38,097 nucleotides of DNA from Muribaculum sp. (GTDB lineage: Bacteria > Bacillota > Clostridia > Lachnospirales > Lachnospiraceae), in the NCBI GenBank assembly GCA_023663735.1, contig JAMPGV010000024.1:1-38097 (forward strand), read 5' to 3'. The stretch's first letter is position 1; each line of letters opens with the position of its first letter. Below, in pieces: positions 19,295 through 37,931 of this stretch. The notes under the pieces were generated by a model. The model worked only from the letters and a program-made list of their open reading frames with translations. It ran no database searches and was not told the origin of the DNA. Made by a program: the position numbers and the translations under genes.

Positions 19295-19328
19295 GATTGC
19301 TCTCTCCATCCTTTCCATATCCCGTCAA

Positions 19329-19536
19329 TAGGTGTTTGCGAAACACTCACTTCGGAAAGTGTCATTGTGCAAATTGCACATTCAACGCAGACACGCTTTC
19401 GCTCCCACCTCACCGTAGTGGCACATAAGGCGCTAAAATACAGCGCCTAAGTGCCAACGGTTCGCTAGGGTCTGCTTATGAATATACAATCTGCACAATT
19501 TGGATTTCGAAAAATATCATTTCGCTATCACCTATT
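19329..19536. repeat. Foldback repeat, long copy 1 (MITE-like)
   Basis: 208 bp, nearly identical to the copy at 26584-26794. Flanked by direct repeats CCGTCAA (19322-19328 and 19537-19543), consistent with a target-site duplication. Ends are imperfect inverted repeats (TAGGTGTTTGCGAAAC left; reverse complement of the right end reads AATAGGTGATAGCGAAA). The interior folds as nested pairs: ATTGTGCA with TGCACAAT, ATTCA with TGAAT, GCAGAC with GTCTGC, CCGT with ACGG, TGGCAC with GTGCCA, and AGGCGCT-aaaatac-AGCGCCT at the tip. A small side hairpin ACACT...AGTGT lies near the left end. No ORF of note inside, so non-autonomous. Confidence 0.85.
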
Positions 19537-19602
19537 CCGTCAAAGTAATCGCTGATATAATTATAAAAGTCTGGAGAAATCTTGTCAACTTTTCCGATTC
19601 CG

Positions 19603-20388
19603 CTACTCCCGCATCTTAGCCAGCACACGTCCGAACTTCATCCATCTCTCCCTGTCCTCTTTCTTATTGTTGTCTATGGTAAACGTGATGCCATAGTCGT
19701 TTAGCGGTTCCAGCACAAAGGAGCGTGCTTGACGTACTTTCCGCAGATAGGCGCGGCTGGTCTCCGTATTGATAAAAAGCCCGGTATCTCCGTCCCGAGG
19801 AATGGTCTTGGACATCAACAGGATGTCTCCCTCATTATAGACCGGATACAGATAATCGCTTGTGATGCGGATTGCACAGTGCAGATCCGCCCCAAACCGC
19901 TTTCGATAGGCGGAAACATTGAGTTTCTCCACATTCACTGAATCCCAGATCATACCGTCCTCATGATTGCCTGTGGGCGTCAACAGACTGATATAATCCT
20001 CCGCCTTCTCGGGCGGCACACGTGTCAGAAACGCAGTCTCGAAATCCACAATGGAGGCGACAAACCTCAATTGTGTGGCCGTCAGATGGCGCATTTTGCT
20101 CATGATCTGCAAAACAAGCGAACTGTCATCCCCACAGAGTTCCGAAATTCCTTTGCCTGTAAGCTCCTGCATCTGATGGGCGATAAATAAGTCAACTTTG
20201 GAAGTCTCCCCGGCAACCATTTTCTTGTACCCGGAGATTGACATATCCACCTCTTTCGCCATCTGTGCCTGCGTCAATCCCAGCGAGGTGCGTTCCCGCT
20301 CCAAGTTCTCAATGAAATTTGTGTTGATTTCCTGCCTTGTCATTTCTTTCGTACTATGCTTGTAGAATCTAAGCCTAATATTACGCAT
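19603..20388 (-). CDS. XRE-family regulator with degenerate S24-like domain
   Basis: 261 residues. A helix-turn-helix spans about residues 35-70 (GLTQAQMAKEVDMSISGYKKM). The C-terminal half (about 160-250) looks like the LexA/CI S24 peptidase fold: IRITSDYLYPVYNEGDILLM, then AYLRKVR with the catalytic-type lysine. Where active proteins have GDSM-x-P, this one has SDYLYP, so the nucleophilic serine is replaced by tyrosine and self-cleavage is unlikely. Probably a repressor using that fold for dimerisation or ligand sensing. No strong ribosome binding site at ATG 20388; an internal ATG at residue 16 is an alternative start. It is a lone gene with no phage neighbours in view. Confidence 0.75.
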   Translation of the reverse strand: MRNIRLRFYKHSTKEMTRQEINTNFIENLERERTSLGLTQAQMAKEVDMSISGYKKMVAGETSKVDLFIAHQMQELTGKGISELCGDDSSLVLQIMSKMRHLTATQLRFVASIVDFETAFLTRVPPEKAEDYISLLTPTGNHEDGMIWDSVNVEKLNVSAYRKRFGADLHCAIRITSDYLYPVYNEGDILLMSKTIPRDGDTGLFINTETSRAYLRKVRQARSFVLEPLNDYGITFTIDNNKKEDRERWMKFGRVLAKMRE

Positions 20389-20734
20389 TTATCTTTTGTA
20401 TACCGTTCTGGAATGGTGTTCTAGCCTGTCTGATAAAAGAAAAAACAGAACGTGTTATATATGATTATTTATTATTATATTAAATTATCATATATGAATC
20501 AAGAAAAATTTTTGAGGTTTTAGGAATCGTAAAATAGGGATTTTCCCCCAGAAAAGGGAGGATGCCAAGGAACACCCGTTCCTTGGCATTTATTATGAAA
20601 AAGTTTTGTAAACAAGTAACTTGTAATCAACCTTGATCTGTACTCCTAGTATATGGCACAGAAATGTCTAAAACATGATACAAAATTGAAAAAATCTTAA
20701 AATAAATGTGAACAAAATATGAACAAAACAATCG
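20389..20734. other. AT-rich intergenic region with palindromes
   Basis: No gene seen. Contains a 9-bp inverted repeat ATATATGAT...ATCATATAT (20457-20465 with 20487-20495) upstream of the XRE gene, which could be its operator. The strong hairpin at 20562-20589 and an AT-rich tail after the cyclophilin gene complete the stretch. Confidence 0.5.
20562..20589. terminator. Strong 11-bp hairpin between cyclophilin and XRE genes
   Basis: ATGCCAAGGAA-cacccg-TTCCTTGGCAT, a perfect 11-bp stem. On the plus strand it is followed by TTATTATG, on the minus strand by CCTCCCTTTTC. It most likely ends the cyclophilin transcript on the minus strand, though the U-tract is weak in both directions. Confidence 0.6.
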
Positions 20735-21256
20735 TCAGAGCTTCTCCGGCTCCGGATAGTCCTCCCCGAACGTCTCCACCGTAACGCTCTTCATCACCTG
20801 ATCCTCCAGCGGCCTGTCGGAATAATCGGTCGCCGTCTCAGCGATGCGGTTGACCACATCCATTCCCTCGACCACCTTGCCGAACGCCGCATAACCGCCG
20901 TCCAAGTGGGGGCTTGTCTTGTGCATGATAAAGAACTGGCTTCCGGCCGAGTCCGGGTGCATGGCTCTGGCCATGGACAGCACGCCCTCGGTGTGCTTCA
21001 GATCGTTCGCAACGCCGTTCTGCGCAAACTCTCCCTTGATGCTATATCCCGGGCCGCCCATTCCGGTACCCTCGGGACATCCTCCCTGAATCATGAATCC
21101 GCGGATGACGCGGTGGAAAATCAGGCCGTCATAATAGCCCTTTTTGATCAGACTGATAAAATTGTTGACAGAGACGGGCGCGGTCTCAGGATAGAGTTCC
21201 GCTTTGATGACGCCGCCGTCCTGCATGGTGATGGTTACAACGGGATTTTTTGCCAT
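20735..21256 (-). CDS. Cyclophilin-type peptidyl-prolyl isomerase
   Basis: 173 residues, a single cyclophilin domain with no signal peptide, so cytoplasmic. Catalytic region FHRVIRGFMIQGG (arginine in FHR), GSQFFIMH and the substrate-pocket LDGGYAAFGKV are intact. Speeds proline isomerisation during folding. AAAGGAAATT precedes ATG 21256. Single gene, divergent from the GNAT gene. Confidence 0.93.
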   Translation of the reverse strand: MAKNPVVTITMQDGGVIKAELYPETAPVSVNNFISLIKKGYYDGLIFHRVIRGFMIQGGCPEGTGMGGPGYSIKGEFAQNGVANDLKHTEGVLSMARAMHPDSAGSQFFIMHKTSPHLDGGYAAFGKVVEGMDVVNRIAETATDYSDRPLEDQVMKSVTVETFGEDYPEPEKL

Positions 21257-21360
21257 AAAAAATTTCCTTTCTGTTCTAAAATATTGTATACTAAAATGAA
21301 TCTGTCCATCATTTATTGTAACCGAATTAACGCGGAACGTAAAGGGGCGAATGCAAATCT

Positions 21361-22203
21361 ATGAACCATATCAAATATTATTTAAAAAAGGTCATCCTTC
21401 TCCCGATCAAGGGAAAATCCGCCGCGGAACCCGACGCGTCCGCCAAAGGTCCTGATGCTCCGGACGGCCAAGCTGCGGAGGAGGCGGTTCTCTACATCAC
21501 GGACGACAGCCCTACGGCCCGCAGGCTGCTCGCGCAAGGCCGGGCGGTACTCGTCTATCTCCATGCGGGAAACCGGGACGCCGATTTCTCTTTCTGCAAA
21601 TATGCCTGTGAGGATCCCACGGAACTCGACCTGCGGTATCTGGACCGAATTTATCGGCGTTACCGGGCGATCCCATGGGACATTCTGGAGACCGAACGCT
21701 GTCTGGTGCGGGAGACCACGGTGGAGGATGTGGACGATTTTTACCGAATCTACAGCGTTCCTTCCATTACTAAGTACATGGAGCCGCTCTATGAAGATCC
21801 GGAGGAAGAACGCGCTTATGCACGGGACTATATCGAGCAGGTGTATGCGTTTTACGAATTCGGCATGTGGACGGTGGTAGACAAATCTTCGGGGGAAGTC
21901 ATCGGGCGCGCCGGTCTCTGCTTTCGGGAAGGCTATGAAGATCCGGAGCTGGGATTCGTCATCGCCGCGGACAGACAGGGGCAGGGGCTTGCCACGGAGG
22001 TCTGCGGGGCGATTCTGCGCTATGGCGGGGAGACGCTTGGGTTTGGGAAAATACAGGCCTTCGTCCAGCCGGACAACGCCGCGTCCCTGCGGGTGTGCGG
22101 GCAGCTCGGCATGAAAAAGACAGGTCATGCACGACTGCAGGGAAAGGAATACCTGATCTATGTCTGGGAAGATCACTCTCCATCACCTGTACTTGACAGG
22201 TGA
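21361..22203 (+). CDS. GNAT acetyltransferase with extra N-terminal domain
   Basis: 280 residues. The C-terminal half (about 115-270) is a RimJ/RimL-type N-acetyltransferase: LVRETTVEDVDDFYRI, then ELGFVIAADRQGQGLATEV with the acetyl-CoA loop RQGQGLA, then PDNAASLRVCGQLGM. The first 115 residues (VLYITDDSPTARRLLAQGR, RYLDRIYRRY) resemble a shortened HAD-like Rossmann domain seen fused to GNAT domains in related Lachnospiraceae proteins; it lacks a visible DxD nucleophile motif here. Substrate unknown. The purine-rich site AAAGGGG is 12-13 nt before the ATG, longer than usual. Confidence 0.75.
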   Translation: MNHIKYYLKKVILLPIKGKSAAEPDASAKGPDAPDGQAAEEAVLYITDDSPTARRLLAQGRAVLVYLHAGNRDADFSFCKYACEDPTELDLRYLDRIYRRYRAIPWDILETERCLVRETTVEDVDDFYRIYSVPSITKYMEPLYEDPEEERAYARDYIEQVYAFYEFGMWTVVDKSSGEVIGRAGLCFREGYEDPELGFVIAADRQGQGLATEVCGAILRYGGETLGFGKIQAFVQPDNAASLRVCGQLGMKKTGHARLQGKEYLIYVWEDHSPSPVLDR

Positions 22204-22253
22204 GTTCGTTGTTGCTATCATGGAAATCAACACAAGAATGTAGAGGTATGCAT

Positions 22254-23192
22254 ATGAGCAAAAAGAAAGTTGTCGTTTCTCTCGGACATGAGTCGCTGGG
22301 TTACACCACATTGGAACAGTGGGACGCAGTCAAAGTTACCGCAAAGGCGCTGGCCGATCTGGTGGAGGCCGACTGCCAGCTGACCATCACTCATTCCAAC
22401 GGCCCGCAGGTCAGCATGATCCATAAGGCGATGACCGAACTGCGCCGAGTATACATTGATTACACTCCCGCTCCCATGTGCGTGTGTTCCGCCATGAGCC
22501 AAGGCTATGTGGGATATGATATCCAGAACGCCCTGCGCGCCGAACTGCTCAACCGGGGCATCTCCAAGCCGGTGAGTACCATTCTGACGCAGGTCACGGT
22601 AGACCCCTACGATGAGGCATTTTACGAGCCTACCAAATTGATCGGCCGCTATATGTCTAAGGAAGATGCGGAAATTGAAGTGAAAAAGGGCAATTATGTG
22701 CGGGAGACGCCCGGCAAGGGCTTTCGGCGCGTGGTGGCCGCCCCCAAACCCATCGACATCGTGGAAATCGAAGCGATCCGCACATTGGCCGATGCGGATC
22801 AAGTGGTCATCGCCTGCGGCGGTGGCGGGATTCCCGTTATCGAGCAGAAACACGCCCTGAAAGGCGCATCCGCCGTCATTGAGAAAGACGCCATCGCAGG
22901 CAAACTGGCAGGAGACCTCATGGCCGACGAACTGATTATCCTCACCAATGTGGACTGTGTGTACCGGTCTTTCGGCGCCAATGACCAGACTCCCCTGCCT
23001 GTTCTAACCGTTCCTGAGGCGCAGGCCGCCATGGCGGAGGGCGAATTTGAGGAAGGTACGATGCTGCCCAAGATCGAGGCCGCCATATCTTATCTAAGCC
23101 GCGTGCCTCAAGGCAAAGTGCGCATCACATCCATGAAATGCGTAAAGGACGCCATCAAAGACAAAGCCGGCACCCTCATCACACAAGCATAA
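22254..23192 (+). CDS. arcC: Carbamate kinase (divergent N-terminal motif)
   Basis: 312 residues, family length. Converts carbamoyl phosphate and ADP to ATP, CO2 and ammonia. Recognised by THSNGPQVS (equivalent of THGNGPQVG), SQGYVGYDIQNAL, PVSTILTQVTVD, GFRRVVAAPKP, CGGGGIPVIEQ, EKDAIAGKLAGDLMAD and TMLPKIEAAI. The N-terminal glycine motif differs: canonical GGNAL is replaced by LGHESLG. ATG 22254 is chosen because GAGGT lies about 7 nt upstream; an ATG at 22248 is too close. No arginine deiminase, ornithine or oxamate transcarbamylase genes lie nearby, so it may serve purine, ureide or agmatine breakdown encoded elsewhere. Confidence 0.85.
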   Translation: MSKKKVVVSLGHESLGYTTLEQWDAVKVTAKALADLVEADCQLTITHSNGPQVSMIHKAMTELRRVYIDYTPAPMCVCSAMSQGYVGYDIQNALRAELLNRGISKPVSTILTQVTVDPYDEAFYEPTKLIGRYMSKEDAEIEVKKGNYVRETPGKGFRRVVAAPKPIDIVEIEAIRTLADADQVVIACGGGGIPVIEQKHALKGASAVIEKDAIAGKLAGDLMADELIILTNVDCVYRSFGANDQTPLPVLTVPEAQAAMAEGEFEEGTMLPKIEAAISYLSRVPQGKVRITSMKCVKDAIKDKAGTLITQA

Positions 23193-23200
23193 TCCAATCC

Positions 23201-23225
23201 TTACGGCGCGCTCTCCGCGCCGTAA
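23201..23225. terminator. GC-rich hairpin between convergent genes
   Basis: TTACGGCGCG-ctctc-CGCGCCGTAA, a perfect 10-bp stem that contains the stop codon of the carbonic-anhydrase-like gene and lies 8 nt after the carbamate kinase stop. It lacks a T-run on both strands, so it is a 3'-end structure rather than a textbook terminator. Confidence 0.5.
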
Positions 23226-23755
23226 TCTGCTCTGCACGCTCTGGCCTCTTCCACATAAAGAGCCGCATTGTGCAGATTCTTTGCAATCTCCGCCTCGGTA
23301 ACGCTGCGCTTGATCTTGGCGGGACTCCCCAAAACCAGCGAATTGTCCGGCACCTGCGCATCCTGTGTCACTAACGCGCCCGCACCCACAATACAGTTTC
23401 GCCCGATCTGCGCTCCATTCATGATGATCGCTCCCATGCCGATCAGGGAATTGTCTCCCACGGTGCATCCGTGGACGATAGCGCCGTGTCCCACGGTCAC
23501 GTTTTCCCCGATGACGACGGGATGGCCGCCGTCTAAATGCACCACCGCATTGTCTTGAATATTGCTTCCCCTGCCGATCTCCACAGACCCTCTGTCGCCG
23601 CGCACGACGGCATTGTACCAAATCCCCACATCGGCTCCCACCGTCACGTTTCCCAGCACCACCGCGCCGGGCGCAATAAAGGCCGTCTCGTGAATCTGTG
23701 GCCGAACGGACTGTGTGCCTTGCATGTCCCGATCTTTCGATTGTCCCTCTGCCAT
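23201..23755 (-). CDS. Gamma-carbonic-anhydrase-family protein
   Basis: 184 residues built from left-handed beta-helix hexapeptide repeats. The three metal-binding histidines of gamma-carbonic anhydrases are present: H73 in AVVHLD, and H90 and H95 in VGHGAIVHG. The conserved VRGDRG and IGMGAIIMNGA turns are also present. Would hydrate CO2 with zinc or iron; many members (YrdA, PaaY-like) have other or unknown roles. ATG 23755 follows AAGGAGTTTGGAG. The longer upstream frame runs into a repeat and is not coding. Last gene after VanZ; the 63-nt gap holds the short repeat locus. Confidence 0.88.
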   Translation of the reverse strand: MAEGQSKDRDMQGTQSVRPQIHETAFIAPGAVVLGNVTVGADVGIWYNAVVRGDRGSVEIGRGSNIQDNAVVHLDGGHPVVIGENVTVGHGAIVHGCTVGDNSLIGMGAIIMNGAQIGRNCIVGAGALVTQDAQVPDNSLVLGSPAKIKRSVTEAEIAKNLHNAALYVEEARACRADYGAESAP

Positions 23756-23784
23756 CTCCAAACTCCTTATCGTATTACTATTTG

Positions 23785-23818
23785 TTAGGCGTTTGCGAAA
23801 CGCTCTAATTTGCAAATT
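23785..23818. repeat. Foldback-repeat terminus, short locus A
   Basis: Contains TTAGGCGTTTGCGAAAC, matching the left terminus of the 210-bp elements, followed by the perfect palindrome AATTTGCAAATT (23807-23818), which recalls the TGCAAATTGCA segment inside the long copies. Probably an internally deleted copy. Its outer edge is 30 nt before the start codon of the carbonic-anhydrase-like gene. Confidence 0.6.
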
Positions 23819-24391
23819 CTACCGAGCCAGCCGCTCCACTTTCGGAAAGCATTTCCACAACAGCGCATAAAGCGTTCCGCCCAGCGCCGCGCCCAGAAAA
23901 TTCAAAAGGATATCGTCCACGTCCACCGACCTGCCGACGAAAAGCTGGCAGAACTCGATCAGCATCGGCAAAAGCAGCGCCAACACGCCCACTTTCCACG
24001 GCGAACGGAATCTCTTCCAGAGCAGCGGCAGCCCCAATCCCCAAGGGATAAACATGACGATATTGCCCACGATATTTACCCGGATGATATCCGGATTTGA
24101 CATATATTTCAGATAGCTCCTGATCGTCCTAAAAGGAACCAGATTGACGCCGATTCCGTACTCCAGCCGTCTCCACGCATGGGCAAAGCTCTTCACGCTG
24201 AGCAATTCCTGCCCGTCTTGGAGCGTCAACGCCAAAAGCCCCAGCATAAACAGCGTAAATACGGCCAGCACAAGTTCCCTGACCGGCCTGCACGCATCTT
24301 TCCGCACCGCCACCCAGACGAATCTTGCCACACAGTACAAGGGCAGAAGAGATAGGACAATCCGCAGCATATTTGATAAATATAGCGACAT
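23819..24391 (-). CDS. VanZ-family membrane protein
   Basis: 190 residues, four to five membrane helices. VanZ signatures are present: VNLVPFRTI, VNIVGNIVMFIPWGLGLPLL, LIEFCQLFVGRSVDVDDILLNFLGAALG (short form RSVDVDD). VanZ homologues can lower teicoplanin susceptibility by changing surface binding, but most chromosomal members have unknown roles. ATG 24391 with upstream GGAAAG is preferred over an in-frame TTG at 24409. It lies 5 nt after the trmL stop. Confidence 0.88.
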   Translation of the reverse strand: MSLYLSNMLRIVLSLLPLYCVARFVWVAVRKDACRPVRELVLAVFTLFMLGLLALTLQDGQELLSVKSFAHAWRRLEYGIGVNLVPFRTIRSYLKYMSNPDIIRVNIVGNIVMFIPWGLGLPLLWKRFRSPWKVGVLALLLPMLIEFCQLFVGRSVDVDDILLNFLGAALGGTLYALLWKCFPKVERLAR

Positions 24392-24396
24392 TTTCT

Positions 24397-24900
24397 TCAC
24401 ACTTTCCAATGTAGTCTGTGCAGTTCCCCCTCGCCCTGCATGTTCTGAAAATGATTCTGGCGCAGAGCCTCGTACAATATGACGGCCACCGAATTGGCCA
24501 GATTCAAGGAACGGATCCCGGGCAGCATAGGAATGCGGATGCAGTCCTCCTCATGCTCTACCAGAAGCTCCTCGGGAATCCCTGCGCTTTCTCTGCCGAA
24601 CATGATAAAATCATCCGGCCCGAATACCGCTTCCGTGTATGTGCGCTTTGCTTTCGTCGTCGCCATCCAGAGTCTGGCTCCCGGATGCTTCTCATACTCC
24701 CGTAGGAACTCTTCATAATTGAGATAGCGCTCCACGGAAAGCCTTTCCCAATAGTCCATGCCCGCCCGCCGGATCTCCTTTTCATTCAGGCGGAATCCGA
24801 GCGGCTCAATCAAATGCAGACTTGTGCCTGTCGCGACACAAGTCCGCCCGATATTTCCCGTATTTGCCGGAATCTCCGGCTGATGTAACACAATGTGCAT
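24397..24900 (-). CDS. trmL: tRNA (cytidine/uridine-34-2'-O)-methyltransferase
   Basis: 167 residues, the minimal SPOUT methyltransferase. Opening motif HQPEIPANTGNIGRTC, then LIEPLGF, and the knot motifs FGRESAGIPEELL, RIPMLPGIRSLNLANSVAV (short form IRSLNLANS). Methylates the wobble ribose of leucine tRNAs using S-adenosylmethionine. Starts 6 nt after the aminotransferase stop, in the Lrp, aminotransferase, trmL, VanZ operon. Confidence 0.94.
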   Translation of the reverse strand: MHIVLHQPEIPANTGNIGRTCVATGTSLHLIEPLGFRLNEKEIRRAGMDYWERLSVERYLNYEEFLREYEKHPGARLWMATTKAKRTYTEAVFGPDDFIMFGRESAGIPEELLVEHEEDCIRIPMLPGIRSLNLANSVAVILYEALRQNHFQNMQGEGELHRLHWKV

Positions 24901-24906
24901 AGGTCA

Positions 24907-26079
24907 TTATCCTTTTTCTGCCCGCAGTTTATTCACAAAGCGCTCCAATCTGCCGATGGCCACCTTGAGATTTTCCAAAGAATACGCATAGGAAATCCGC
25001 ACAAATCCCTCCCCGCTGTCTCCGAATGCAGTGCCGGGAACCACAGCCACGCGTTCCTCCTCCAGAAACCGCTGCGCAAATTCATCGCTGGTCATGCCGA
25101 ATTCCCCGATATAAGGGAACACATAGAATGCGCCGTAAGGCTCGAAACACGAAAGCCCCATCTCCCGGAATGCGTTCAAGAGATACCGTCTGCGCTGATT
25201 GTAGGCCACGCGCATCTCCTCGATATCCGCATCCCCGTTTTTCAAAGCCTCCACCGCAGCGTACTGGCTCGTGGTGGGCGCGCACATGATAGCAAACTGA
25301 TGAATCTTGGTCATCTGCCCGATGATATTGGCGGGACCACAGGCATAGCCCAGCCTCCAGCCCGTCATGGCGTATGCCTTGGAAAATCCGTTGATTAGGA
25401 CTGTCCGCTCCCGCATACCGGGGAGACTGGCAATGGATACATGCTTCTCCTTGTAGGACAATTCCGCATAAATCTCATCGGAAATGACAAATATGTCATG
25501 TTTCAAGATAACCTGTGCGACTGCTTCCAGATCCTCCCGCTCCATAATCGCTCCGGTCGGGTTGTTGGGAAACGGCAAAATCAATACCTTGGTCTTGTCC
25601 GTGATGGCTTCTTCCAGCTCCTGCGCCGTGAGACGGAACTCATTTTCCGCCTTGAGATTAATAATCACAGGCTTCGCCCCCGCAAGGATGGCGCAAGGCT
25701 CATAGGACACATAGCTGGGCTGGGGAATCAGCACTTCCTCCCCGGGATTGACCATAGCCCGAAGCCCCATGTCAATCGCCTCGGAGCCGCCCACGGTAAT
25801 CAGCACCTCTTTGGCCCAGTCATACTCGATTTGGTTCCTGCGCTTCATGTAATTGCAGATCTCCTGCCGAAGCTCTTTTAAACCCGCGTTGGAGGTATAG
25901 AAGGTACGTCCCCGCTCCAGAGAATAGATTCCCTCGTCCCGGATATGCCATGGGGTGTCAAAATCCGGTTCGCCCACTCCCAGCGAGATCGCGTCCTTCA
26001 TTTCACTGACGATGTCAAAAAACTTTCGGATGCCCGAAGGCTTGATTTCTACTACTTTATCTGCTAAAGGATTTCTCAT
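24907..26079 (-). CDS. PLP-dependent class I/II aminotransferase
   Basis: 390 residues. Fold type I aminotransferase with PLP lysine K234 in INGFSKAYAMTGWRLGY, the ring-contact D201 in ISDEIY, PNNPTG at 171-176 and the substrate arginine in GEGFVRISYA. It resembles the aspartate/aromatic group; the amino acid used is not certain. Its ATG overlaps the stop of the Lrp-family gene by 4 nt (ATGA), so the regulator and enzyme are translationally coupled. This Lrp-aminotransferase pairing is common in Clostridia and suggests control by the amino acid handled. Confidence 0.9.
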   Translation of the reverse strand: MRNPLADKVVEIKPSGIRKFFDIVSEMKDAISLGVGEPDFDTPWHIRDEGIYSLERGRTFYTSNAGLKELRQEICNYMKRRNQIEYDWAKEVLITVGGSEAIDMGLRAMVNPGEEVLIPQPSYVSYEPCAILAGAKPVIINLKAENEFRLTAQELEEAITDKTKVLILPFPNNPTGAIMEREDLEAVAQVILKHDIFVISDEIYAELSYKEKHVSIASLPGMRERTVLINGFSKAYAMTGWRLGYACGPANIIGQMTKIHQFAIMCAPTTSQYAAVEALKNGDADIEEMRVAYNQRRRYLLNAFREMGLSCFEPYGAFYVFPYIGEFGMTSDEFAQRFLEEERVAVVPGTAFGDSGEGFVRISYAYSLENLKVAIGRLERFVNKLRAEKG

Positions 26080-26558
26080 GGCGTAATCATCTCTCTTTCA
26101 TCTTCCGGCTTCTGAGTGAAAATCGTGCCGTGATCTTTGTATTTTTTCAAAATAAAATGTGTCGCGGTGGAAAGCACCTGCTCCAAAGGCGCGAGCTTAT
26201 CCGACACGAAGGAAGAAACCTCCCGCAGCGTCTTCCCCTCCAAAATGACCATCAAGTCAAATCCGCCGGAGATCAGATAGACGCTCCGCACCTCGGGATA
26301 CCTGTAAATGCGCTCCGCCACATTGTCGAATCCCTGTCCTCTCTGGGGCGTCACCCGCACCTCGATCAGCGCGGTCACTTTGTCCAGAGAAGTCTTCTCC
26401 CAATTCACCAGCGTGTGATATCCGCAGATGACGCCCTCGTCCTCCAGCGCCTGCAGTTCGTTCACCACGTCAATCTCCTGCACTCCCAGAATGACCGCCA
26501 GTTCCTTCAAATCAATGCGGCTGTTTTTCTCAATGACCGCCAATAATTCTTCTCTCAT
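26076..26558 (-). CDS. Lrp/AsnC-family transcription regulator
   Basis: 160 residues. N-terminal winged helix (LLAVIEKNSRIDLKELAVIL), then the RAM amino-acid-binding domain with ALIEVRVTP, YPEVRSVYLISGGFDLMVI and a C-terminal helix. Expected to bind an amino acid as an octamer and regulate the coupled aminotransferase. AAAGGAACGG precedes ATG 26558. A long foldback repeat ends 25 nt upstream of the start, so it separates this operon from the HypE-like gene and would lie in its promoter or leader. Confidence 0.9.
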   Translation of the reverse strand: MREELLAVIEKNSRIDLKELAVILGVQEIDVVNELQALEDEGVICGYHTLVNWEKTSLDKVTALIEVRVTPQRGQGFDNVAERIYRYPEVRSVYLISGGFDLMVILEGKTLREVSSFVSDKLAPLEQVLSTATHFILKKYKDHGTIFTQKPEDEREMITP

Positions 26559-26583
26559 TTTCCGTTCCTTTCTATGATTTACA

Positions 26584-26794
26584 AAAAACAGGTAATTGCA
26601 AAACTCTTACTTCGGAAAGAGTCATCGTGCAAATTGCACATTCAACGCAGACACGCTTCCGCTCCAACCTCACCGTAATGGCACATAAGGCGCTAAAGTA
26701 CAGCGCCTAAGTGCCAACGGTTCGCTAGGGTCTGCTTATGAATATACAATCTGCACAATTCGGATTCCTAAAAATATTGTTTCGCAATCGCCTA
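26584..26794. repeat. Foldback repeat, long copy 2 (MITE-like)
   Basis: 211 bp, same orientation as 19329-19536, with no insertions or deletions through the central ~170 bp and only a few substitutions there. Flanked by direct repeats ATTTACA (26577-26583 and 26795-26801), different from those of copy 1. Terminal inverted repeats read GGTAATTGCAAAAC and, from the other end, GGCGATTGCGAAAC. The small hairpin near the left end is ACTCT...AGAGT here against ACACT...AGTGT in copy 1: a compensatory change. The right end also pairs with the 3' end of the neighbouring gene (ATCGCCTAA with TTAGGCGAT, 26787-26819). Confidence 0.85.
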
Positions 26795-26810
26795 ATTTAC
26801 AGCAAATAAT

Positions 26811-29328: not shown

Positions 29329-29412
29329 AATAACTATGCCTTTCCGTAACCTGCGGATTTGAGGCGCAGGTACAATATCTGCAAGACGAAAGTCTTTAAA
29401 ATAGCATTTGAA

Positions 29413-29520: not shown

Positions 29521-29557
29521 AACAGCCACCATGCCTTTCCGTAACCCGCGGACTTTT

Positions 29558-29576
29558 GTGTTTCGCAAACGCCTAT
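29558..29576. repeat. Foldback-repeat terminus, short locus B
   Basis: GTGTTTCGCAAACGCCTAT, the reverse complement of the left terminal motif of the long elements, in opposite orientation on the DNA. The orientation relative to its downstream gene (start 29607) matches the other three loci; the gap from its edge to the ATG is 31 nt. Confidence 0.5.
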
Positions 29577-36508: not shown

Positions 36509-37931
36509 TCAACATTTTTTATACATCTTTCCCTTTGTACTGCCGGTTGCTTCTATTTTTCCCTGCTGAATTAAATCCCTCAATAATTCTTTAATACGAG
36601 ACTCTTTAACAAAAACGACTTTTTCAAAGTCTGACACTCTATACCATACGTCATATTGCATACTGTTTAAAATCAATTCCTGTTTTTCTAAAGTTTTTTT
36701 CGTCACTTTTTTTTCGCCGCTTTTTTTCGCCGCTTTTTTTCGTCATCTTTTTTCGCCGTTTTCCCCTGCTTCATCTTTAAGACTAAAGTAACCTGATTTA
36801 AAATCGTATCCTCAATTAGCTCCGGCTTCTCCCATCCTTGCTTCTCCCAGACGCTCAATATTGTTGGAAACCCTGAACCAACATTATCTCCGTATCCCGC
36901 CATGCGGAGCATTGACTGCATTCTCGGATTCCTCGCCTTTGAATTTCCGCCCTGAAAGATCTGTTCTCTTGGAATTTTTAATACGCCGGGATTTGTGATC
37001 TCAAATCCTTCTGCCGTCTTAACTACTTTCAGGGTTCCCTCGATCATATAATCTGCGTGAATGATCATATTTACACAAGCTTCCCTGACCGCTCTATGCA
37101 ACGGGGTATCGTCCTCCCTGATATACCCTTTCAATTTAAAGGGTTTAGGCAGTTCCGCTGTAAGCTTTGGAAGCACTTTCCCAAGGAAATTAAATGCATT
37201 GTCATAAAAATATTGTCAAACACATCACGTACAGCCAATCCGCTTCCAAACATCATAAGCCCCGCCAGCGTCAATCCCTCAATACCTTTATCTCTGTCTT
37301 TTCTATATCCGCCAAGCATTTCCAGAAAATGTTTATCGTCATAAGTATTCCAAATATGTTCCCCGTTTTCATTTTGAAACCTCATGCGGTATGCACGCAG
37401 CGTATCCGCATCTACATCATCCATCGTATAATGTTCTATTACCATGTCATCCACACCCTCTGCATTTTGATCGCGAAACATTGCCCGGATCTCTGCGTTG
37501 GTACAATGATAATCACCCTCATGATTTCTCTTAAATGTCCCTGTAAAAGGATTACTCCCAACATATACCGGTCGCGTCTGAAAATTCGCGCGCGGAACTC
37601 GAATTACGATAAGGCTGATGGTATCTTCCACGACCTGAAATACATCATCATTCTTCAAAAGATTAATATTTACCTTGTCAGAATGAATCGTGTTCCAAAA
37701 ATCTTCCAGTTGTTTAGAAGGATTTTCGATTCCCTGAATGATAAAACGTTCTTCCGGCTTGGTTTTCTTCTTGTTTTCATCTACACCGAGAATAATGTAA
37801 CCGCCTTTGGTATTTGCAAAAGCAGAATAAGATTCATAGATAGATCTCGGCACGCTGCTTTCCGCTTTTTTGCACTCTACATCTACCTTTTCGCCCTTAT
37901 ATATAATTTGTTTTAATTCCTGCATATTCAT
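36509..37931 (-). pseudogene. AlbA_2/Schlafen-like ATP-binding protein gene, broken
   Basis: Three consecutive minus-strand frames make one protein. Frame 1 (37931-37131) has the AlbA_2 domain: VECKKAESSVPRSIYESYSAFANTKGGYIILGV. Frame 2 (usable from about 37210, ending 36703) has the HATPase-like part typical of RecG-related COG2865 proteins: DDTPLHRAVREACVNMIIHADY and AGYGDNVGSGFPTI. Frame 3 (36706-36509) has a winged helix. About 25-35 residues (the family's DYRE...W segment) are missing at the first junction near 37198-37217, where ATTGTC occurs twice 14 bp apart, suggesting deletion between short repeats. The second junction is an A8 run with stop TGA. AT-rich, unlike its left neighbours. 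Probable role in defence or regulation before decay. Confidence 0.7.

Follow-up and report, generated by a model that had tools for sequence, protein, structure and literature searches.

Many of the known structured RNAs of bacteria are leaders or riboswitches. The bcr1 repeats of the Bacillus cereus group are interspersed repeats that have a conserved RNA fold. According to the accessible part of their description, bcr1 repeats are short, have mobile features, are present in an average of 39 copies per strain, are found in this one species group only, and have a mobility linked to a TTTAT motif (PMC6542083). The motif MRSC-65-2, one of a set of mobile/repeat sequence candidates, is multi-copy and structured, has an inconsistent orientation to genes and, in the accessible text, consists of one long stem that contains a UYCCGG repeat (PMC11109978). 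The TwoAYGGAY RNA (RF01731; PMC2864571) has two AYGGAY loops, which are proposed to bind CsrA in the accessible part of a further account (PMC4333381). The stretch of DNA analysed here (the window) comprises positions 1 to 38,097 of contig JAMPGV010000024.1, from an assembly named Muribaculum sp. (GCA_023663735.1) that is placed in the Lachnospiraceae by its GTDB lineage. Very probably, the window holds two copies of a miniature inverted-repeat transposable element (MITE) with 16-bp ends (TAGGCGWTTGCGAAAC) and target duplications of 9–15 bp, inside which lies a structured RNA, referred to below as the core, of a family for which no record was found.

The two copies in the window are 91% identical across 208 nt without a gap, as an earlier, sequence-only reading of the same DNA had stated. 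That reading had placed the copies at 19329–19536 and 26584–26794; the copies are real, but when the boundaries are fixed by the inverted ends, copy 1 occupies 19329–19534 and copy 2 occupies 26589–26794, i.e., 206 bp each, with the RNA borne on the minus strand in both cases. The inverted ends of copy 1 are at 19329–19344 and 19519–19534 (read inward, TAGGTGTTTGCGAAAC and TAGGTGATAGCGAAAT) and those of copy 2 are at 26589–26604 and 26779–26794 (CAGGTAATTGCAAAAC and TAGGCGATTGCGAAAC). Copy 1 is flanked by a 9-bp target duplication with one mismatch (locus L001; left, TCCCGTCAA, 19320–19328; right, TTCCGTCAA, 19535–19543) and copy 2 by a 12-bp duplication with two mismatches (locus L010; left, ATTTACAAAAAA, 26577–26588; right, ATTTACAGCAAA, 26795–26806). 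The 7-bp direct repeats reported earlier (CCGTCAA and ATTTACA) are literally present, but the 7-bp reading was dropped because the duplications anchored on the ends are longer and the 7-mers are the exact parts of them. The core of copy 1, a three-way junction with a P4 loop of sequence GAAA, lies at 19375–19487 on the minus strand (model R1, 122.2 bits), and that of copy 2, whose P4 loop is GGAA and thus also GNRA, lies at 26635–26747 on the minus strand (model R1, 120.5 bits). The stem AGGCGCT-7 nt-AGCGCCT that had been pointed out earlier is present in the letters of the sequence. The folding energy is −102.3 kcal/mol for the minus strand versus −75.2 kcal/mol for the plus strand, with fold z scores of −10.74 (the value for copy 1) and −6.84, respectively, and 0 of 200 shuffles fold equally well on either strand; a chance origin of the fold in the window is excluded.

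The host assembly (2.65 Mb in 73 contigs, 87% complete) gave at least 53 matches in a BLAST search with copy 1 (40 of 126 candidates scored) and at least 74 when a covariance model built from the interior was used (150 of 747 candidates scored). Contigs C12, C25, C27, C41 and C55 start about 55–65 bp from an element copy or end, which indicates that the assembly breaks at the repeat and that the true copy number is probably higher. The resemblance between terminal inverted repeats that was noticed in the window extends to the whole genome, where one strand has 103 and the other 92 sites that resemble the 16-bp end at two mismatches or fewer, versus 4 and 6 for the reversed pattern. The 206-bp form is too short for 80 codons, so that the element is both short and transposase-free, as a MITE is. 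Longer forms (254–289 bp) have an additional interior hairpin, and among the loci examined there are eight forms of 51–90 bp that consist of ends only, no two of them alike, five of which have 10-bp duplications by eye. At two loci (L041 and L033) there are arrays of at least two elements with a common flanking direct repeat, as if one target had been hit again.

Target duplications of 9–15 bp, anchored on the ends, were found at 36 of 49 host copies (20 of the 36 exact), compared with 1 of 960 when the right flanks were exchanged between copies. Duplications of 9, 10, 11, 12, 13, 14 and 15 bp occur in 1, 6, 10, 12, 2, 4 and 1 copies, respectively, and the duplicated DNA is 71% AT, versus 56% at a distance of 20–40 nt. 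In other genomes, duplications flank 14 of the 40 copies that have ends of this kind (control, 5 of 777). The element is absent from a relative at two loci: the flanks of L040 match those of L187, which lacks it, and L246 and its orthologue L054 (flank identity 95–96%) carry an element that is missing from L251. Conserved ends, duplications and these two element-free loci bear out the proposal that the repeat is a mobile element of the MITE type. The empty sites looked for in relatives were thus found in so far as the element is absent, but the relatives are too diverged for a single target copy to be visible.

Read on the minus strand, the core comprises an outer stem, a three-way junction, P1 (GCAGAC/GUCUGC), P1b, a long helix with a two-nt bulge (P2), an apical hairpin (P3), and a mini-hairpin with a GNRA loop (P4). 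Covariation exceeds that of the shuffled and slid controls, as is expected of a structured non-coding RNA. In alignment A1 (43 cores from the host and related genomes), both sides have changed at 23 of the 34 pairs, and 93.1% of cells are paired, versus 79.9% when shuffled and 24–41% when slid. The corresponding values are 31 of 34 pairs and 96.3% versus 68.1% shuffled for A5 (38 rows, 33 of them distinct: 4 from the host, 13 from genome G006 and 21 from genus g26; 2 of the 38 are also in A1), 33 of 34 pairs and 93.4% versus 70.8% for A3 (107 rows, 103 distinct), and 27 of 34 pairs and 92.0% versus 74.8% for A2 (94 rows from named contigs picked by a pattern), with the proviso that alignments A2–A5 were fitted to the model, which biases their pair counts towards it. 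In A3 and A5 there is covariation within P4 as well. Two G-A juxtapositions in P2 interchange with Watson–Crick pairs, and compensatory changes are seen by eye between orthologous loci of two species, e.g., in P2, P3 and P4 of L301 and L306.

Since the pattern by which the named contigs L160–L276 were found admits only GNRA loops and prescribes parts of P1, P2 and P4, loops and pair types were recounted without these contigs. Among 125 cores from beyond the host genome that were not chosen by pattern, 13 have no recognisable P4, and the loop is GNRA in 107 of the other 112 (GAAA 55, GAGA 31, GGAA 11, GCGA 5, GCAA 4, GGGA 1). In the same set, G-U exceeds A-C by 60 to 16 in P1out, P1, P1b and P3 combined. 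With L160–L276 included, GNRA loops number 233 of 238 and G-U versus A-C is 133 to 36; within the host genome the loop is GNRA in 44 of 47 copies.

A side hairpin in which ACACT/AGTGT in one copy is replaced by ACTCT/AGAGT in the other had been put forward as a compensatory change. The exchange is real in both window copies, but the five-pair stem is not generally kept: among 36 distinct host versions of this stretch, a narrow search found a perfect hairpin of at least 3 bp in 25 and none in 11. At least three of those 11 hold CTAC/GTAG beyond the range of offsets covered; the letters that pair are not the same throughout, and ACTCT is found together with AGTGT as well. The exchange was therefore rejected as proof of selection.

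The covariance-model search of the Lachnospiraceae that the sequence-only reading had proposed revealed the core in 152 of 397 sampled genomes of the family, representing 134 of 334 genera; within the genus of the host, 100 of 138 genomes have it. Across the class, 11 of 391 genomes matched, all of them among the 16 that belong to the Lachnospiraceae, and 0 of 375 outside the family. Across the phylum there were five matches in 398 genomes, four within the Lachnospiraceae; the fifth (L320), from outside the family, shows on inspection the conserved core with an outer stem of 19 nt. Copy numbers per genome from these wide searches are lower bounds. A pattern scan of named genomes gave at least 117 stretches, and the 80 titles among the matches listed are Lachnospiraceae, Acetatifactor, Roseburia, Eubacterium, Eubacteriaceae, Clostridium and Clostridiales. 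The core is also present on a contig of Candidatus Acetatifactor stercoripullorum (L239), where its coordinates are identical to those in genome G016 from the genus of the host; the host therefore probably belongs to the Acetatifactor group. A link to viruses was considered and rejected, as the model recovered neither of two pattern matches in viral contigs. No DNA match was found in phage or plasmid records, from which near relatives may be left out.

The core occurs in several other settings. TAGG-type ends (3 mismatches allowed) surround it in 38 copies beyond the host genome. Ends of type GTAACAGTTCAGCC are present in eight copies of 196–226 bp, six of which have plausible 6–8-bp duplications (counted without a control); ends of type GGGGTGGGGAAA in nine copies (L176 being doubtful), with no clear duplications; and ends of type TAAATGGAAAGTTAG in six copies of 465–485 bp in one genome (G006, which consists of a single contig), also with no clear duplications. 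The other half of the G006 element is a TwoAYGGAY RNA (RF01731, E 3e-17), which is divergent to the core. TwoAYGGAY RNA is thus carried by MITE-like elements, at L308:1779–1941 (+) as half of the G006 element and at L160:1176–1338 (−) within an element whose ends resemble GTAACAGTTTAGCC by eye. In genus g26, the core is at the tip of long, locus-specific hairpins that have no common ends. Eleven g26 loci are orthologous between genomes G187 and G340, with cores 79–100% identical; arms at 62–75% identity, a range for which there is no random baseline, are seen for L304/L299 and L155/L300 and less clearly for L134/L286 (the stem of L134 is weak). The g26 neighbours are ordinary genes encoding 19 distinct proteins, e.g., murB/rapZ, folC/valS, ilvN/ilvC and ispD/tsaD. 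At L143, the possibility that two RNA copies and the gene they enclose form a transposon was considered and rejected: this gene is polysaccharide-deacetylase-like (with a score under the NCBIfam cut-off), and L284 is an orthologous locus with the same arrangement.

When copies with an identical core and identical 60-nt flanks were counted once (339 reduced to 314) and genes were called by a codon-usage script, 257 of the 314 copies had called genes on both sides, 57 lacking a called gene on one side. Copies of the core less than 500 bp apart are arranged as 16 divergent, 5 tandem and 1 convergent pairs, and those 500–3000 bp apart as 5, 4 and 3, counts that include both members of orthologous pairs (e.g., L057 and L233). 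Examples of close divergent pairs are L063:712–826(−)/1090–1204(+) and L226:2391–2518(−)/2685–2806(+).

Consistent with the statement that no named family was recognised, Rfam 15 gave no match at gathering score in the window, and in selected loci the only family matched was TwoAYGGAY, outside the core. The TwoAYGGAY covariance model (RF01731) did not match the core at gathering score; two TwoAYGGAY matches lie beside the core or elsewhere. A sub-threshold mir-71 match over the core of L299 (25 bits, gathering 50, E 0.44) looks like chance, and one further Rfam match, away from the core, was judged to be chance. No published description of the core was found in the literature searched, which does not extend to most subscription papers or to any supplements, so that the core may have been published under a different name. 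A stretch at C11 111198–112441 was considered as a 1.2-kb autonomous element and rejected, the enclosed gene being aminotransferase-like by reading of its translation, without a family search.

Several observations weigh against a MITE family with a selected RNA inside, in addition to the bias of the fitted alignments. By score, 13 of 49 host copies and 26 of 40 copies elsewhere have no duplication, and the divergence of the element-free sites hides the single target copy. The related transposase that the sequence-only reading had hoped for was not found in a search limited to three protein families and the loci examined: PF01609, PF06782 and PF00872 had 0 matches in the 87% complete assembly, the positive control for PF06782 having given no signal, and the loci examined contain no autonomous partner with the same ends. 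The orientation of the core to genes is random: both neighbours are on the same strand as the RNA at 92 copies, both on the opposite strand at 103, and mixed at 34 and 28. Promoter scans of 32 strands from 16 divergent spacers gave no clear signal (mean z 0.59, standard error 0.17). G-U does not exceed A-C in P2 (15 to 21, in the same 125 cores). In the outer arms, which were counted in 295 copies overall, G-T is 366 versus 402 for A-C in the 240 copies beyond the host genome; in the host genome the arms have G-T 236 versus A-C 112, in copies of common ancestry. Given the G-U excess at the tip and the equality of G-T and A-C in the arms, the tip behaves as a folded strand would, and the outer stem beyond the host genome as a DNA palindrome would. 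Finally, private mutations in the core are not depleted relative to the arms in the host genome: across 39 copies, the core has 0.247 private substitutions per site, the two arms have 0.233 and 0.262, and the ends 0.375 and 0.312. As private mutations are equally common in core and arms, insertions in the host genome look near-neutral, the copies drifting after insertion. Thus, the earlier suggestion of a structured RNA under selection holds for the family, with its covariation and GNRA loops, but not for the host genome taken by itself. Selection on a structured RNA in the interior is supported between lineages and where the core stands alone, and not for individual insertions in the host genome.

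The random orientation to genes, the lack of a promoter signal and the even outer arms would also suit an interior that works as single-stranded DNA, in the form of a hairpin that replication or transposition would expose and that a transposase or a host protein would bind, a role also proposed for REP sequences; GCGAAAGC is unusually stable as a DNA mini-hairpin too. Such a role is unlikely, considering that the P4 loop obeys the GNRA rule of RNA in 107 of 112 cores, its second letter being A, G or C and its third A or G, and that G-U prevails over A-C in P1out, P1, P1b and P3, although G-T would be milder than A-C in DNA as well. To our knowledge, REP-type movement would not be expected to yield target duplications. 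If the repeat were a palindromic DNA repeat only, whose fold had come about incidentally through foldback ends and template switching and with no selection on an RNA, the arms beyond the host genome would have no strand preference and private mutations in the host genome would be even across core and arms, as they are; the three-way junction, the bulge, the GNRA loop and the internal-loop letters, all of them asymmetric, are nevertheless conserved over 134 of 334 sampled genera, and in the 11 orthologous g26 pairs the core has stayed 79–100% identical while the arms of three pairs are at 62–75%, which makes this account very improbable. A retro-element, in which the RNA would be copied and inserted by a reverse transcriptase through target-primed synthesis leaving duplications of variable length, would explain a conserved RNA core and duplications of 9 to 15 bp. 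It would explain neither the same 16-bp sequence inverted at both ends nor the ends-only forms of 51–90 bp, 5 of 8 with 10-bp duplications by eye, and hardly deserves credence. Equally hard to credit is a role as a cis-acting leader or terminator for adjacent genes: many copies are near gene starts or stops, but a leader would keep a fixed orientation to the gene downstream, whereas co-directional neighbours are on the same strand 92 times and on the opposite strand 103 times, the g26 neighbours are unrelated housekeeping genes, and the g26 copies have no consistent U-tract by eye. The leader or terminator reading was rejected on the random gene orientation.

For the MITE with an RNA inside, the following course of events can be proposed. 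A putative transposase acting in trans would recognise the MITE ends and make a staggered cut, usually of 10–12 bp, in AT-rich intergenic DNA. Since the core is also present in elements with other ends and in stand-alone hairpins, the MITE would most likely have arisen by the enclosure of an RNA-bearing hairpin between ends of this kind. The stand-alone RNA is probably functional, because orthologous sites retain it and show compensatory changes, and we infer that the RNA strand would be transcribed. By analogy with the proposal for the TwoAYGGAY RNA, the best guess, a tentative one, is that the RNA may bind a protein. A bolder idea, which is rather doubtful, is that of a hairpin module (RNA or single-stranded DNA) as old as the family, which would recurrently form the heart of unrelated transposable elements, seed long inverted repeats and, by its fold, act as a cis determinant of mobility or of host tolerance; the apparent replacement of both arms with the core kept at the g26 loci named above, and the 16:1 ratio of divergent to convergent pairs, are traces that such a module could leave.

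Two solitary MITE ends, both exact matches, are also present in the window. One is at 23786–23801 (+) and is probably a truncated copy, as there is no partner end nearby at up to three mismatches; the other, at 29560–29575 (−), is probably a truncated copy as well. A 28-nt direct repeat (29333–29360 and 29528–29555, 89% identical, 195 bp apart) stops just before the latter. Elsewhere in the window, at 36694–36757, there are 4.8 copies of a 13-nt tandem unit (consensus TTTTTTTCGCCAC).

A covarying RNA in 134 of 334 sampled genera of the Lachnospiraceae, which is multi-copy, free of any gene orientation and carried by several types of ends, would connect an RNA class with the rearrangement of genomes in a family that is dominant in the gut, and would offer a route to its putative protein partner. 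The association with TwoAYGGAY RNA suggests that the latter has the same way of life. As far as the accessible descriptions of TwoAYGGAY allow the comparison, it is the RNA that makes up the other half of the 465–485-bp G006 element holding the core, but it has AYGGAY loops at its tips, which the core lacks; the host genome has one copy of it, versus at least 74 of the core. The bcr1 repeats are likewise short and interspersed with mobile features, but the accessible part of their description has no MITE with inverted ends and 9–15-bp duplications (PMC6542083), and in place of TTTAT-linked insertion restricted to B. cereus, the present element has duplications of varied sequence and is found in Lachnospiraceae. 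MRSC-65-2 resembles the core in being multi-copy, structured and inconsistent in its orientation to genes, but in the accessible text it is a single long stem, whereas the core is a three-way junction (PMC11109978). With ordinary bacterial MITEs the element shares its shortness, its lack of coding capacity, its inverted ends, its target duplications and its many copies; it differs from them in its interior, which, with no evident remnant of a transposase gene, is a conserved RNA common to elements with other ends.

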